Below, one piece after another: positions 20,697-28,883 of a stretch of DNA of 64,000 nucleotides. A program made the translations under genes and the position numbers. Position 1 is the first letter of the stretch; each line of letters begins with the position of its first letter. The stretch lies in the NCBI RefSeq assembly GCF_000332275.1, contig NZ_CM001776.1:4710008-4774007 (forward strand). Reading direction: 5' to 3'. Origin of the DNA: Synechococcus sp. PCC 7336 (lineage in GTDB: Bacteria; Cyanobacteriota; Cyanobacteriia; Thermostichales; PCC-7336). The notes under the pieces are model-generated. The model worked only from the letters and a program-made list of their open reading frames with translations, did not search any database and had not been told where the DNA came from.

Positions 20697-21533
20697 ATGA
20701 AGCAAGTGGACTGGCAACCCGGCAAACCCTATGACGACATCCTGTATCACAAGGCTGATGGCATGGCGAAAGTCACCATCAACCGTCCCCACAAGCGCAA
20801 TGCTTTTACCCCCAAAACGGTCTTCGAGATGTACGATGCCTTCTGCGATGCGCGGGAAGATCGCAGCATTGGCGTTATTTTTCTCACGGGAGCAGGACCC
20901 CATACCGACGGCAAATACGCCTTTTGTTCGGGGGGCGATCAGAGCGTGCGGGGTAAAGCGGGCTACGTGGGGGATGACGGCGTACCCCGTTTGAACGTAT
21001 TGGATTTGCAGCGGTTAATTCGGTCAATGCCGAAAGTGACGATCGCGTTAGTGGCGGGATACGCGATCGGGGGCGGACACGTGTTGCACTTGCTCTGCGA
21101 TCTCACCATCGCTGCCGATAACGCCATCTTCGGCCAAACGGGTCCCAAAGTCGGTAGTTTTGACGGCGGCTTTGGGGCCAGCTACCTCGCCCGCATTGTC
21201 GGTCAGAAAAAAGCCCGCGAAATCTGGTTTCTCTGTCGTCAATACAGTGCCGAACAGGCGTTGCAAATGGGGTTAGTCAATACGGTCGTACCGGTCGAGC
21301 AACTGGAAGCGGAAGGAATTCAATGGGCGCAGGAAATCTTGAATAAGAGTCCGCTGGCAATCCGCTGTTTGAAAGCTGCACTGAATGCCGACTGCGACGG
21401 TCAGGCAGGACTTCAGGAGCTAGCAGGTAATGCCACGCTGCTCTATTACATGAATGAAGAAGGCAGCGAGGGCAAGCAAGCCTTTCTGGAAAAGCGCCCG
21501 CCCGATTTCCGCCAATTTCCCTGGTTGCCCTGA
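20697..21533 (+). CDS. menB: 1,4-dihydroxy-2-naphthoyl-CoA synthase MenB
   Basis: MenB closes the second ring of the naphthoquinone by a Dieckmann-type condensation of o-succinylbenzoyl-CoA. In cyanobacteria it serves phylloquinone synthesis for photosystem I. The 278-residue crotonase-fold protein has [18 protein letters not shown], the oxyanion-hole region [65 protein letters not shown] and the conserved end [14 protein letters not shown] hairpin with a 9-bp stem follows the stop codon. Confidence 0.96.
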
Positions 21534-21536
21534 CAG

Positions 21537-21567
21537 TAGAACGGTAAATATTCTCTTGACCGTTCTA
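21537..21567 (+). terminator. Stem-loop after menB
   Basis: TAGAACGGT and ACCGTTCTA form a perfect 9-bp stem with a 13-base loop, starting three bases after the menB stop codon. There is no T run after it, so it may act as a weak terminator or a 3'-end stabiliser. Confidence 0.55.
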
Positions 21568-21670
21568 AATCTCCGAATTAGAGTTGGTATTATTAATGCA
21601 CTAACGTTGCAACGATCGCCTCAGGTCAATCCGTGAACAATTTTCGATTTAACTTTTGGTTTGTGGAGGG

Positions 21671-21742
21671 CACCTGAGCTAAGTTGCTGCAATCAGTCAT
21701 GCTTCAGGTGGACCCAACGCACATTTGCTTGGGTCTTTTCAG
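21671..21742 (+). promoter_or_regulatory. Two adjacent hairpins, the second terminator-like, upstream of the aroF leader
   Basis: Hairpin A pairs CACCTGA (21671-21677) with TCAGGTG (21704-21710). Hairpin B starts at the very next base and pairs GACCCAA (21711-21717) with TTGGGTC (21729-21735), followed by TTTTCAGTTTTT. This could end a small RNA or act as a first termination point ahead of the aroF attenuator. Only 22 bases separate it from the leader-peptide start, so any aroF leader transcript beginning upstream must pass through it. I do not recognise a known riboswitch consensus. Confidence 0.5.
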
Positions 21743-21764: not shown

Positions 21765-21854
21765 GTGACTTCAGCCGATACGACAAACATTCGAGACGGC
21801 GATCGCCGATTTTTTAGCGGCTTCTGCTTTTGGTTCGGACACAGGTCCGGGTAG
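21765..21854 (+). CDS. Aromatic-rich leader peptide of the aroF attenuator
   Basis: GTG 21765 is preceded by AGAGAGGGAATTCTCC and opens a 29-residue ORF ending with TAG at 21852-21854. The peptide starts MTSADTTNIRDGDRR and continues FFSGFCFWF at residues 16-24: five Phe and one Trp codon in nine. The concentration of aromatic codons immediately before alternative hairpins is the mark of a regulatory leader peptide that senses charged tRNA-Phe and perhaps tRNA-Trp. The downstream gene makes the first enzyme of aromatic amino acid synthesis, which fits that role. Confidence 0.75.
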   Translation: MTSADTTNIRDGDRRFFSGFCFWFGHRSG

Positions 21855-21907
21855 ACAGTCGCACGCTTGCACCCACTGCCCGGACCCCTGCGGTACCGGG
21901 CTTTTTT
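21836..21907 (+). promoter_or_regulatory. Transcription attenuator of aroF (three mutually exclusive hairpins)
   Basis: Segment 1 CGGAC (21836-21840) pairs with GTCCG (21845-21849). Segment 2 GGTCCGGG (21844-21851) can instead pair perfectly with segment 3 CCCGGACC (21879-21886), giving the antiterminator. Segment 3, as GCCCGG (21878-21883), can pair with segment 4 CCGGGC (21896-21901), followed by six T (21902-21907), giving the intrinsic terminator. A ribosome stalled on the early Phe codons would cover segment 1 and free segment 2 to sequester segment 3. A ribosome reaching the stop codon would cover segment 2 and allow termination. The aroF ATG lies 47 bases beyond the T tract. Confidence 0.78.
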
Positions 21908-21953
21908 ATTGCTAAACCTGCAGATTCACCATCCAATATCCAGAGGCTTTACC

Positions 21954-22808
21954 ATGAAAGACGCTCGATTGACCCGCAAACAAACCCCCAGCCACACCTC
22001 CGCGATCGCCATTACCGATCGCCTCGCCATCGGCACAGAAGCCATCACCCTCATTGCCGGTCCCTGCGCGATCGAAAGTCGCGAGCAAATGGAGGCTGTC
22101 GCCGCCCACCTAGCTCCCAGCCCGATCCAAATGCTGCGGGGGGGAGCCTTCAAGCCCCGCACTTCGCCCTATAGCTTCCAAGGCTTGGGGCGAGCGGGCT
22201 TAGAGATTATGCGCGATGTAGGACGAGCCTACGACATGCCGGTGGTGACCGAGGTGATGGCGGTCGAACAGGTGGAGGCGATCGCCGATTGTGCCGATAT
22301 GCTGCAAATTGGCAGCCGCAATATGCAAAATTTCGACTTGCTTAAGGCGGTGGGCCAGATCGAGAAACCGGTGCTGCTCAAACGCGGTCTGGCCGCCACG
22401 CTAGAAGAATTTGTCATGGCCGCCGAATATATTATGAGCAGCGGCAACCCCAATGTTGTCCTGTGCGAACGAGGCATCCGCAGTTTCGATACCTATACTC
22501 GCAATGTTTTAGACCTCGGGGCTGTGGTTGCCCTCAAACAACTCACTCACCTGCCCGTCATTGCCGATCCCTCCCATGCCGCCGGTCGTCGCGAGCTGGT
22601 GGCCTCCCTCTCCAAAGCGGCGATCGCCTGTGGAGCCGACGGCCTGATCGTAGAATGCCACCCCGAGCCCGATCGCTCTGTCTCCGATGCTCGCCAAGCC
22701 CTATCTCTCGATGCTATGACTGCCCTGGCTGACAGTTTGCCTGCGATCGCTGCTGCTGTTGGCAGAACCTTACCGGCTACTTCTGCTCCCTTGCCCGTGG
22801 CCGTTTGA
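21954..22808 (+). CDS. aroF: 3-deoxy-7-phosphoheptulonate (DAHP) synthase, AroF/type I-beta
   Basis: The enzyme condenses phosphoenolpyruvate and erythrose 4-phosphate to DAHP, the committed step of the shikimate pathway. The 284-residue protein has LIAGPCAIESREQM, LRGGAFKPRTSPYSFQG, VVTEVMAVEQVEAIADCADMLQIGSRNMQNF, PVLLKRGLAATLEEF, LCERGIRSFDTYTRNVLD and PVIADPSHAAGRRELV. These are the core metal and substrate residues of the microbial I-beta group. ATG 21954 starts MKDARLTRKQTPS; the open frame upstream runs through the attenuator and is not coding. No fused chorismate mutase or ACT domain is present, so end-product control may rest largely on the leader attenuator. Confidence 0.95.
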   Translation: MKDARLTRKQTPSHTSAIAITDRLAIGTEAITLIAGPCAIESREQMEAVAAHLAPSPIQMLRGGAFKPRTSPYSFQGLGRAGLEIMRDVGRAYDMPVVTEVMAVEQVEAIADCADMLQIGSRNMQNFDLLKAVGQIEKPVLLKRGLAATLEEFVMAAEYIMSSGNPNVVLCERGIRSFDTYTRNVLDLGAVVALKQLTHLPVIADPSHAAGRRELVASLSKAAIACGADGLIVECHPEPDRSVSDARQALSLDAMTALADSLPAIAAAVGRTLPATSAPLPVAV

Positions 22809-22955: not shown

Positions 22956-23024
22956 ATGGGAACAACTGCTTTACTCGAACTTCAAGAATCTTATGCGCGT
23001 ACACGTAGATCCGCCCCTAAATAG
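22956..23024 (+). CDS. Possible 22-residue peptide (leader-type ORF)
   Basis: An ATG ten bases after GCAGGAG opens MGTTALLELQESYARTRRSAPK. It lies about 57 bases beyond a consensus promoter. Its end overlaps a stem-loop (GCCCCT/AGGGGGC, about 23013-23031), and a 54-residue ORF begins 45 bases later. It could be a leader peptide or a short genuine protein. Evidence is limited to the ribosome-binding site, promoter and placement. Confidence 0.35.
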   Translation: MGTTALLELQESYARTRRSAPK

Positions 23025-24836: not shown

Positions 24837-27800
24837 ATGCCTTCCAATCAAACCTTTCTCTCTATAAACACAAGCGTCGATACCTCTGTGAGCAATGGAG
24901 GTATTTTCTTTCCAAGTGGCGACCCAATCGAATTCGAGCTGGAACCAGCATTAGACGGAAGATTAGTTTTTGATTTTGATGCTATTGAAGTCACTAACGT
25001 TGGAGGGCCTATTTCAATCAGTGCCGTCTCGCTTAACAGTCAGTTTTTTCCCGATAGAACAGGCTTAGTCATTCTTCGTGGCGGTACTGCAAACGACACT
25101 TTAACTGGCTCTTTAGAAGTTCCTACTCTATTAGTAGGAGGTCAAGGTGATGATGTATTGTCGAACGGCAATGGTGAGGTTTTTCTCAACGGCTCTGTAA
25201 TCATAACTGATGGCTCAGTTACTGATGGTATAGAGACTGATACTCTTTCCAATGTGACTGTGATTCTTGTTACGACATCTGACAGTGCAGATAATACTCA
25301 TAGTGCATCTGGCGTTACTGCAGAGCTTGAAACCTTAATTACAGACAATGGTGGTGGAAATGATGAATTTTTAGGATCGCCTAATAGTGACGCATTTTTT
25401 GCTGGCGATGGCAATGACACTCTAAAGGGGGAAGGTGGAAACGATAACTTGCAAGGCCAAGGCGGTGCAGACCTCCTTGTGGGTGGAGAAGGAAATGACT
25501 TCTTTCGAGGTGGAAGTGAAAATGACACACTGGACGGAGGAGATGGCAATGACTTTATCGTTGGGGAAGAAGGTGACGACAGCATTATTGGTGGTGATGG
25601 TGACGACGATATCTTTGGAGAAAGTGGCAGTGATAGAATTTTTGGAGGTCTAGGAAAAGACAGTATATCAGCTGGTGAAGGCGATAACTATGTTGATGTT
25701 GGTGAAGGGAATAATGATGACGATGTCTTTGCCCTTGATGGTAATGATACTGTTTTAGGCAATCACGGTAACAATCGAATTTTTGTTAACGGTGGTGATA
25801 ATCTAGTTGAAGGTCGTGATGGAAAGGATGATATTTTTGCTAGTGGTGTAGGCCAAAACACGCTGATTGGAGGCAATGGTAGTGACTTTATCGTTGCATT
25901 TGATGGTGACGATATGCTTTTTGGAGACAGTCAGTTTGGGGAAACTAGTGACGATGGTGACGATTCAATCAGAGCAAATGGTGGAAATGATACCATCAAA
26001 ACTGGAGGAGGAAATGATGATGTTCTTGCAGGTGATGGAGACGATCGTATCGATCTGGGAAGTGGAGACGATACTGTTACCTTAGATCGAGGTAATGACA
26101 CAGTATTTGGTGGCAGTGGAGACGATCTTCTTTTTGCTAGTCTTTCGTTTGAAGGGGATCGCGACAGATTCTTTGCAGGCGATGGCAACGATACAGTCTT
26201 TGCCGGTGTTGGATCTGAAATTATTCGAGGTAATGGAGGAGACGACTCACTAAGAGGAAGAGGAGGAGAAGATCGAATTTTTGGTGGTAGTGGAAACGAT
26301 ACGATTGAAGGATTCGATCGCGATCTCATTCTCGATGGCGGCAGGGGAAACGACGAAATTAGCACCTCAGGAGGTTCCGAAGAGATTCGAGGCGGATCTG
26401 GGAACGATACGCTCGTCGTTGACGAGGAATTTATTCGTTATGAATTGACCGATGATGTACTAGCATTGACGACTATATCGGGTGAAATTCTAACCAGTGA
26501 TTTGTCGGGAGTTGAAAATGCTCGTCTGACTCTCAGCCAATTTGCTGCAATCAACGGAACCTTCGATATTTCGCAATTTAGTGGCGAAGTCACGTTAATT
26601 GGTAGTTCTGGAGATGATGTCTTTACAGATGGGGAAGGTAGCGATGTACTCGATGGTGGAGGTGGCATCGATCTGCTTTACCACGAGTCAAATGAGAATC
26701 AGTATCTCCTTGATGGGGAATTGATTAGTGGGGATACAATCAACCAACTGATCGATATCGAACAGGTTCAGTTGTCGGGTGGCGCAAGAGGGAATCTTTT
26801 AGACGCTTCTGAATTTACTGTCTCAGGTGTAACCCTCAGTGGCGGAGGGGGAGCTGACACGCTAGTAGGAAGTAGTCAAGACGATCGCCTAGAAGGAGGC
26901 GAAGGTAGAGACTACCTAGAAGTTTCTGGCACTACAGATTTTGTCCTGACTGATGATGCTTTAGCGATAGGAGTTGTAGAGCCTATCGAGAACCTACTCG
27001 ATCTGAGAGAACTTCCTGAGGCAACTCCACTGGCAACGATCGCCGAACGGGACGAGCTGGAGAGTATCGAACGAATTCGGATTACTATAGATAGTGAAGC
27101 GGATAGCGACACAGGCGACGAGCCTGGTTCGATTGTTAATGCCTCTGCATTCACTACCGGCAACGTGACGATTGAGGGCGGTCTCGGTCGAGATTTACTC
27201 ATTGGTGGCCAGCGGGCTGATAACTTGAGCGGCGGTGCAAATAACGACACATTGAGCGGAGGATTGGGGGCTGACATAATCAATGGTGGCGAAGGTATAG
27301 ATCGCGTTATTGAGGAGGCCGACGTCAATTTCCATTTGTTTAGTGATGCAGTTGATGGCTTCTTGATAGGAGTTGGCCGCGACAGACTCATCGGAGTTGA
27401 AGAAGTCTATCTAACTGGTGGCGAAAGTAATAATCGCCTTTTTGCCAGAGCCTTTAGCGGCAGAGTTTCTTTAAATGGTCTCGAAGGAAATGACACTCTA
27501 AGCGGTACAGTTAACAACGATGAATTATTTGGCGGAGAGGGTGAAGATCTTTTATTCGGTAATGGTGGAAACGATACCATTGAGGGAGGGGATAATGACG
27601 ATATCATCCGGGGAGGTGGAGGTCTAGATACTATCTTTGGAGATGATGGAAATGACGTAATTGATGGCGGGGCTGACCTCGATATCATTTTTGGTGGCGA
27701 TGGAAACGACGAAATTTCTGGTGGTTCTCACGCAGATAGGATCTTTGGCGATCGCACTGGAGGCATGGGCTTAGGAGATGACGAATCTGAAGCTGGCGCT

Positions 27801-28883
27801 GGTGAAGACCTTCTAAGAGGTGAAAGTGGAGACGACTTTATCTTCGGTGGTCAATTAAATGATGAAATCATTGGGGGCCTTGGCGTAGATATTATCGATG
27901 GAGGTACTGGTAACGATCTATTATTTGTCGAATCTAGGCTTGGATTTAATGCAGAACTTCTCGACACTCAATTCACATTCTCACTTACCTTTGACCAGAT
28001 AGTTGGTGGTATTTTAACTACTTTCCGTAACACAGCATATGGAGGAGATGGTAGTGACACCATCGTCGGTGGAGGTGGCAATGATACTCTATTTGGCGAT
28101 CGCAATTATTTAGATGACCAAACCGAAGATACACTCGAAGAAGGATCTGGGCGAGATTTTCTTTTCGGCGGAGTTGGTAACGATAGTCTAATTGGTGGAA
28201 ATGATGCAGATTTTCTATATGGAGAAATAGGTAGAGATACCTTAATCGGAGGCTCAGGAAGAGACACTTTGATTGGTGGAAGTAATGACGACTTCCTTGT
28301 TGGAGGCTCCCATAGTGACACCCTTATTGGAGGGGGTGGGATGGATATCCTACAAGGTGATGATGGAAATGACTTATTAATCAATGGGAATTTCTTTGGA
28401 AACGATCCTTTAAACGATAGCAATATCATACATGGAGGCAAGGGCGAAGATACACTCCGAGCAATTGGTAGAAGTTTTATAATGGATCGTCCATTGGAGG
28501 CGTTTGTCGATATCCTTGTAGGAGGTGAGGATGGAGATACTTTTGAATTAATAGAGTCTTCTTCAGTTGAAGGTCGTTTATACGATCAATCAAGAACTGC
28601 AATCATACAAGATTTTAATCCTGCTGAGGGAGATAGAATTCAATTATCGGGCTCTAAAGGATCGTTTGCATTAGATCCATTCACGAATGGGGATGGAAGT
28701 CTATCAGGGGTTGATATTCTATACGAGACAAATTTGTTTGGATCTATCTCCCTGCCAGCAATATTTGAGATCGACAATGGTATTCCTACAGGCCATGTTT
28801 TAGTTGCTCGACTCTTTAATTTAGATGGAGTGCTTGATGATTTTTCACTACAGAGTAGTGCATTGACATTTGTCGGTGTGTGA
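24837..28883 (+). CDS. RTX / hemolysin-type calcium-binding repeat protein
   Basis: This 1348-residue acidic protein is built largely from GGxGxDxLxGGxGxD-type nonapeptide repeats (for example GGSENDTLDGGDGNDFI), which fold into calcium-loaded beta-rolls. Blocks occur at about residues 185-520, 580-620, 670-690, 780-815, 860-1030 and 1075-1210, separated by non-repeat spacers. There is no N-terminal signal peptide; the end (DDFSLQSSALTFVGV) is of the type seen in proteins exported by type I secretion. No protease, lipase or adhesin domain is recognised, so a surface-layer or extracellular matrix role is possible. No ABC/HlyD/TolC export genes are nearby. The DNA is markedly AT-rich and poor in HIP1. 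Confidence 0.93.
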   Translation: MPSNQTFLSINTSVDTSVSNGGIFFPSGDPIEFELEPALDGRLVFDFDAIEVTNVGGPISISAVSLNSQFFPDRTGLVILRGGTANDTLTGSLEVPTLLVGGQGDDVLSNGNGEVFLNGSVIITDGSVTDGIETDTLSNVTVILVTTSDSADNTHSASGVTAELETLITDNGGGNDEFLGSPNSDAFFAGDGNDTLKGEGGNDNLQGQGGADLLVGGEGNDFFRGGSENDTLDGGDGNDFIVGEEGDDSIIGGDGDDDIFGESGSDRIFGGLGKDSISAGEGDNYVDVGEGNNDDDVFALDGNDTVLGNHGNNRIFVNGGDNLVEGRDGKDDIFASGVGQNTLIGGNGSDFIVAFDGDDMLFGDSQFGETSDDGDDSIRANGGNDTIKTGGGNDDVLAGDGDDRIDLGSGDDTVTLDRGNDTVFGGSGDDLLFASLSFEGDRDRFFAGDGNDTVFAGVGSEIIRGNGGDDSLRGRGGEDRIFGGSGNDTIEGFDRDLILDGGRGNDEISTSGGSEEIRGGSGNDTLVVDEEFIRYELTDDVLALTTISGEILTSDLSGVENARLTLSQFAAINGTFDISQFSGEVTLIGSSGDDVFTDGEGSDVLDGGGGIDLLYHESNENQYLLDGELISGDTINQLIDIEQVQLSGGARGNLLDASEFTVSGVTLSGGGGADTLVGSSQDDRLEGGEGRDYLEVSGTTDFVLTDDALAIGVVEPIENLLDLRELPEATPLATIAERDELESIERIRITIDSEADSDTGDEPGSIVNASAFTTGNVTIEGGLGRDLLIGGQRADNLSGGANNDTLSGGLGADIINGGEGIDRVIEEADVNFHLFSDAVDGFLIGVGRDRLIGVEEVYLTGGESNNRLFARAFSGRVSLNGLEGNDTLSGTVNNDELFGGEGEDLLFGNGGNDTIEGGDNDDIIRGGGGLDTIFGDDGNDVIDGGADLDIIFGGDGNDEISGGSHADRIFGDRTGGMGLGDDESEAGAGEDLLRGESGDDFIFGGQLNDEIIGGLGVDIIDGGTGNDLLFVESRLGFNAELLDTQFTFSLTFDQIVGGILTTFRNTAYGGDGSDTIVGGGGNDTLFGDRNYLDDQTEDTLEEGSGRDFLFGGVGNDSLIGGNDADFLYGEIGRDTLIGGSGRDTLIGGSNDDFLVGGSHSDTLIGGGGMDILQGDDGNDLLINGNFFGNDPLNDSNIIHGGKGEDTLRAIGRSFIMDRPLEAFVDILVGGEDGDTFELIESSSVEGRLYDQSRTAIIQDFNPAEGDRIQLSGSKGSFALDPFTNGDGSLSGVDILYETNLFGSISLPAIFEIDNGIPTGHVLVARLFNLDGVLDDFSLQSSALTFVGV

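Follow-up and report, generated by a model that had tools for sequence, protein, structure and literature searches.

Transcription of aroF in the cyanobacterium Synechococcus sp. PCC 7336 is very likely gated by two ribosome-mediated attenuators of the trp/pheA type arranged in tandem, a reading to which we assign a probability of roughly 0.88 on the strength of sequence comparison. The gene (21954-22808, forward strand, in the 64,000-nucleotide stretch analysed here, termed the window) encodes a short class I-beta 3-deoxy-7-phosphoheptulonate (DAHP) synthase of 284 aa (TIGR01361, NF006421). A preliminary description of this DNA had proposed one attenuator, reading aromatic codons and controlling the DAHP synthase gene. 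Comparative evidence strongly supports ribosome-mediated attenuation by aromatic codons, and the proposed element is present. It is not single, however, but the second of a pair: another leader ORF (21633-21677) with its own terminator lies upstream, most likely on the same transcript. The control region begins at about 21556 and holds two attenuators, and the interval first listed (21765-21953) is thus incomplete. Sequence and comparison between genomes support the leader ORFs, the promoter, the alternative helices, their conservation and their link to aroF.

The downstream element (attenuator 2) reads exactly as first described with respect to its ORF, stems and T-tract. Leader ORF 2 (21765-21854) has a GTG start and 29 codons (MTSADTTNIRDGDRRFFSGFCFWFGHRSG), carries FFSGFCFWF at residues 16-24 and ends with TAG at 21852-21854, ahead of the aroF ATG at 21954; in relatives, it has the form M...SWFYGFYFWxRxSSG before the stop codon. 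Arm 1 (CGGAC, 21836-21840) could pair with GTCCG (21845-21849) in a proposed 1:2 protector hairpin. Arm 2 (GGTCCGGG, 21844-21851) consists of the final ORF2 codons and is complementary to CCCGGACC (21879-21886) within arm 3 (GCCCGGACC, 21878-21886), which can pair either with arm 2 or with arm 4. The 3:4 pairing forms an intrinsic terminator (21878-21907) composed of GCCCGG (21878-21883), CCGGGC (21896-21901) and T6 (21902-21907). Even when the window is excluded from its construction, the covariance model of attenuator 2 matches positions 21810-21923 with 69.6 bits (E=1.1e-11), and the folding of the region beats all 200 shuffles (z -2.96). Among relatives, the 2:3 helix is 90.7% paired with 26 double-changed cells compared to 9.3 in shuffles, and the 3:4 helix is 92.5% paired with 20 compared to 9.5, counts that are partly inherited and do not all represent independent events. 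The 1:2 stem folds in the window (-8.2 kcal/mol) and is foldable in 99% of ORF2 leaders, yet it shows no covariation across relatives, being 69% paired versus 67% when slid by one column and hardly above shuffles. Hence, of the three stems taken to be mutually exclusive, the 2:3 and 3:4 helices are supported and the 1:2 stem is not. In the folding models of the window, a ribosome stalled at any codon up to W23 of ORF2 leaves the antiterminator (-28.0 kcal/mol), and a ribosome at the stop codon leaves the terminator (-16.4 kcal/mol). Modelled in this way, attenuator 2 of the window behaves as the trp model demands.

The upstream element (attenuator 1) is built on leader ORF 1 (21633-21677; GTG start, VNNFRFNFWFVEGT, stop TGA at 21675-21677), which contains 5 aromatic codons within 9 and is homologous in position and register to leaders of the type M...YFYFWFSEVHLE, directly followed by the stop, in 53 other loci. 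Arm 2 (GGGCACCTGA, 21668-21677; GGTTCACCTGGAG is its counterpart in relatives) overlaps the ORF1 end and stop. The antiterminator side of arm 3 (TCAGGTGGACCC, 21704-21715) pairs with CACCTGA (21671-21677) and, beyond an internal loop, continues the pairing with arm 2 by GG:CC. An intrinsic terminator (21711-21739) follows, in which GACCCAA (21711-21717) pairs with TTGGGTC (21729-21735) ahead of T4 (21736-21739); its predicted stability in the window is -14.7 kcal/mol (z -3.8). In 53 aligned loci, the 2:3 helix is 92.3% paired, has double changes in 8 of 12 pairs and 63 double-changed cells compared to 19.6 in shuffles (again in part inherited), and slid pairing reaches at most 54%. The terminator helix is 99.2% paired in 53 sequences and has five double-changed pairs. 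Thus, the alignment of upstream regions that the preliminary description had suggested reveals covarying antiterminators and terminators together with conserved aromatic codons, and no covariation of the 1:2 stem.

Two further features of attenuator 1 were observed in relatives. At the end of their ORF1, arm 2 and the stop codon form a local hairpin, TTCAC/GTGA(A/G), with 93% of cells paired and columns that hardly vary; it might be a pause or protector hairpin of attenuator 1. The terminator pairs GCAG/CTGC are near-invariant (49 to 52 of 53 per pair; alignment A1 columns 95-98 and 110-113) even though they are paired in only one of the alternative structures. An exception is the window, where the corresponding positions (about 21713-21717 and 21729-21733) have changed in a compensatory manner. 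As this near-invariance exceeds what pairing demands, a protein or small molecule might bind the conserved arms, as in a riboswitch or with an antiterminator protein, and the aromatic peptides would then be secondary. We consider such an arrangement very improbable, given that the arms are separated by non-conserved RNA, while the in-frame aromatic codons are strongly conserved and the spacing to the stop is fixed. Moreover, at the gathering score no T-box, riboswitch or other cis-regulatory family of Rfam matches the window, and the best match of the leader at a permissive threshold scores 15.2 bits against a cut-off of 42.5.

Both elements most likely belong to one transcript. A sigma70-type promoter, TTGACC-N17-TAGAGT (-35 at 21556-21561, -10 at 21579-21584, forward strand, expected transcription start near 21591), is the sole promoter-like match between 21500 and 22000. 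Of 96 distinct cyanobacterial leaders, 88 have the pattern TTGACn-N16-18-TAnnnT no more than 180 nt 5' of the stop codon of ORF1, as opposed to 0.8% of shuffles, and a second promoter between the two leaders was found in 0 of 87 loci. The position of the promoter before ORF1 and the lack of one between the leaders suggest the single transcript. Relatives thus have the arrangement of a trp/pheA-type system, with a promoter upstream and a gene of the same pathway downstream.

Directly 5' of the aroF control region lies menB (20697-21533; 1,4-dihydroxy-2-naphthoyl-CoA synthase, NF005637). Since menB ends just upstream and T-rich stretches yield Phe codons by chance, the hairpins could in principle be ordinary terminators that insulate aroF from menB, accompanied by chance ORFs. 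This explanation is hardly credible, because menB is separated from both terminators by the promoter, aromatic codons are 2.5 to 4 times as frequent in frame as in the other frames, the antiterminator helices covary and attenuator 1 is linked to 142 of 144 aroF genes. The comparative data contradict it in the main.

The coding content of the leaders points to selection on codons. In the leader cores, Phe, Tyr and Trp account for 69% of in-frame codons in ORF1 (96 distinct leaders) and 65% in ORF2 (91 distinct leaders), compared to 16-27% in the other two frames (26% and 16% for ORF2). Clusters of such codons occur in both ORFs of the window as well as in these 96 and 91 leaders. Codons with T in the first position nearly all encode Phe, Tyr or Trp, with Leu and Cys almost absent, and single core positions alternate between Tyr and Phe (40 versus 38, or 49 versus 39). 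This pattern reflects selection on the aromatic class of codons and not on a particular peptide. Within the core, Phe is mostly encoded by TTT (TTT:TTC is 249:18 in ORF1 and 277:36 in ORF2), a bias that might tune ribosome speed or avoid structure. Among ORFs of 8-45 codons on both strands of the window, only ORF2 reaches 6 aromatic residues in 9. Five ORFs of this length have at least 5 in 9, two of which (ORF2 and the ORF at 21633) lie directly 5' of aroF.

Phe, Tyr and Trp codons are present in both leaders of nearly all relatives, which argues against the two leaders sensing different signals. The window leaders have lost their Tyr codons and contain Phe and Trp codons only, with Asn and Cys at the Tyr positions of relatives. 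The preliminary description had stalling on Phe codons, but relatives read Phe, Tyr and Trp and not Phe alone. The interchange of F, Y and W also bears on the idea that the leader peptides act in trans, as peTrpL does in Sinorhizobium (PMC7298713), or that the leader ORFs mainly aid aroF translation by reinitiation. Roles of this kind are possible for leader genes elsewhere, and the peptides are conserved across families. However, it is the aromatic class that is conserved and not residue identity, which suits codon sensing better than a function of the peptide, and the 102 nt between the ORF2 stop and the aroF start greatly exceed the short distances considered for reinitiation (PMC4833913). 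Either role is therefore very improbable as the main one.

The tandem arrangement is common among cyanobacteria. In a sample of 390 genomes of the class, 144 contain a short aroF (defined at about 62% identity or more), and attenuator 1 is adjacent to it, upstream and on the same strand, in 142 of these. Attenuator 2 was found in 134 of the 144 genomes, and both models match in 132, in line with a leader RNA that contains a serial pair. The elements are spread over 17 families of the sample. By inspection, the two genomes in which attenuator 1 is missing have retained ORF2 with its aromatic codons and its terminator, immediately preceded by a promoter. Loss of the ORF and stems in relatives that retain aroF had been named at the outset as an observation that would refute the proposal; checked against these genomes, it did not refute it. 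In three Pseudanabaena-like loci examined (L019, L020 and L061), attenuator 2 is absent and leader 1 is kept. Conversely, 142 of 148 matches to attenuator 1 lie at aroF. Three of the other six are at or near contig ends, where short aroF was not recovered, and the remaining ones comprise one before an aroF pseudogene, one degraded relic and one chance-like match. Genes for more divergent DAHP synthases (about 58% identity, or the long form) are without attenuator 1. With respect to an origin by duplication, the models of attenuators 1 and 2 cross-match weakly, with 20 bits at best. Two acidobacterial loci (L062 and L063; Chloracidobacterium, Blastocatellia) with an aroF of 60-62% identity contain one conserved aromatic ORF, MHAR(S/N)FTFSGYWYW..., and then a strong terminator-like hairpin about 200 nt 5' of aroF. 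This element is perhaps an independent or an ancestral single attenuator.

Folding across relatives is consistent with a competition between the 2:3 and 3:4 helices. When arm 2 is accessible and arm 4 has yet to be transcribed, the 2:3 helix is preferred (P>=0.5) in 95 of 96 attenuator 1 leaders and 86 of 91 attenuator 2 leaders, compared to just 32 and 35, respectively, with shuffled tails. Placing a ribosome at the stop codon leads to formation of the terminator base (P>=0.7) in 91 of 96 and 89 of 91. Arm 2 lies in the last codons of the ORF, and the last aromatic codon of the core precedes the stop by a median of 21 nt in either leader; by geometry, a ribosome finishing the ORF would thus mask arm 2. 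At equilibrium, once the full RNA has been made, the terminator side is mostly still paired even if arm 2 is free, which means that the switch model depends on the order of synthesis. Equilibrium folding was uninformative as a switch test, and folding before arm 4 synthesis was used instead.

In the window itself, the competition is clear for attenuator 2, and attenuator 1 belongs to the control system with lower certainty. The window copy of attenuator 1 is among the most divergent: it escapes a default search with a model from which the window was left out, the same model with filters off places it in the right register at 10.2 bits (E=0.1), and even a model that includes it gives 6.0e-9. 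Furthermore, its antiterminator and terminator overlap only in the GG:CC continuation, so that 2:3 and 3:4 can coexist (-28.3 versus -23.6 kcal/mol with arm 4 held free). Given these deviations and the single attenuator losses known among relatives, attenuator 2 might be the only working switch in this genome, with attenuator 1 reduced by decay to a terminator that is weak or constitutive and just lowers transcription. Such a decay is a real but rather unlikely possibility. The ORF, its 5 in-register aromatic codons and the position of arm 2 at the stop are all kept, the terminator has changed in a compensatory manner (GACCCAA/TTGGGTC replacing ACCGCAG/CTGCGGT), and 2:3 is favoured (P=0.77) before arm 4 is synthesised. 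Against the model as a whole, we count that both window leaders start with GTG.

For the tandem attenuators, we infer leader translation, ribosome stalling, readthrough upon starvation and an effect of having two elements, which would act as follows. The single promoter at about 21556-21584 would give rise to a leader RNA about 360 nt long that carries both ribosome-mediated attenuators, one after the other. A ribosome that passes the aromatic codons and reaches the stop would mask arm 2, so that arms 3 and 4 pair and the polymerase terminates. If Phe or Trp codons (or Tyr codons, in relatives) slow the ribosome, it would sit about 21 nt or more before the stop and leave arm 2 free to pair with arm 3 ahead of arm 4 synthesis, and the polymerase would continue. 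Since aroF is reached only by reading through both terminators, it would be turned on when aromatic tRNAs are poorly charged, and two serial terminators might be expected to repress more tightly than one. Since the double switch is common to nearly all relatives, AroF is probably made only under Phe/Trp shortage.

In agreement with the preliminary description, which had noted the absence of ACT and chorismate mutase domains, a domain search finds PF00793 alone in AroF; PF18152 is absent, and the protein is without an N-terminal regulatory domain. A paralogue elsewhere in the genome combines PF00793 with the ferredoxin-like regulatory domain PF18152 and has no aromatic leader upstream. It is a reasonable assumption that, of the two DAHP synthases, the one with no regulatory domain has come under RNA control. 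Because the second DAHP synthase carries its own regulatory domain and no such leader, the suggestion that the attenuator could be a main feedback point was too strong. Three chorismate-binding enzyme genes and the prephenate dehydratase gene of the same genome have no convincing similar leader. Downstream of aroF, a 22-codon ORF (MGTTALLELQESYARTRRSAPK, 22956-23024) precedes the next small ORF (23070), and the ORF list contains a 1348-codon ORF (24837-28883) whose numerous GGxGxDxL-type repeats are characteristic of RTX-like calcium-binding proteins.

According to a survey of leader genes published in 2016, reliable data on attenuation were lacking for cyanobacteria (PMC4833913). Our full-text literature search, with subscription journals outside its reach, returned no description of the aroF element and no later report of attenuation in the phylum. 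Cyanobacteria probably do use classical ribosome-mediated attenuation, in the form of an old and widely kept serial double gate that reads Phe, Tyr and Trp and acts on a DAHP synthase without a regulatory domain. If it works as proposed, it points to close transcription-translation coupling in Cyanobacteria and amounts to a natural device for sensing how far aromatic tRNAs are charged. It would also account for the control of an isozyme that has no regulatory domain of its own, and could be exploited in engineering the production of aromatic compounds from CO2.

The cyanobacterial leaders share with the E. coli trp and pheA attenuators (trpL, pheL; PMC11802643) an ORF rich in pathway-product codons upstream of a biosynthetic gene and an antiterminator that competes with an intrinsic terminator. 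In contrast to E. coli, two attenuators lie in series on one transcript, Phe, Tyr and Trp codons all occur in the leaders of relatives, control falls on DAHP synthase as the shared first step and the 1:2 helix is unsupported. The aroR-aroF system of Corynebacterium glutamicum reportedly also has an aromatic leader (Phe-Tyr-Phe) and an attenuated DAHP synthase operon, but with a single leader and three aromatic codons (Neshat 2014, via PMC11802643; PMC4046766). Tyr availability is described there as without effect (PMC11802643; PMC4046766), which cautions against reading the sensed amino acid off the leader codons. The proposed uORFC-13-1 motif upstream of Acholeplasma aroF, likewise found by comparative analysis, combines a Phe-codon uORF with a promoter and a terminator; it differs in having one uORF with at least one Phe residue, another structure and an occurrence limited to Acholeplasma and environmental sequences (PMC8632094). 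Two short ORFs and two serial attenuators in one leader RNA are known from Salmonella mgtCBR, where the signals are distinct (ATP and proline; PMC3641672). The leaders of cyanobacterial aroF, in contrast to mgtCBR a biosynthetic gene, both carry the same kind of aromatic codon, and this doubling raises the testable question of what two like gates gain over one.
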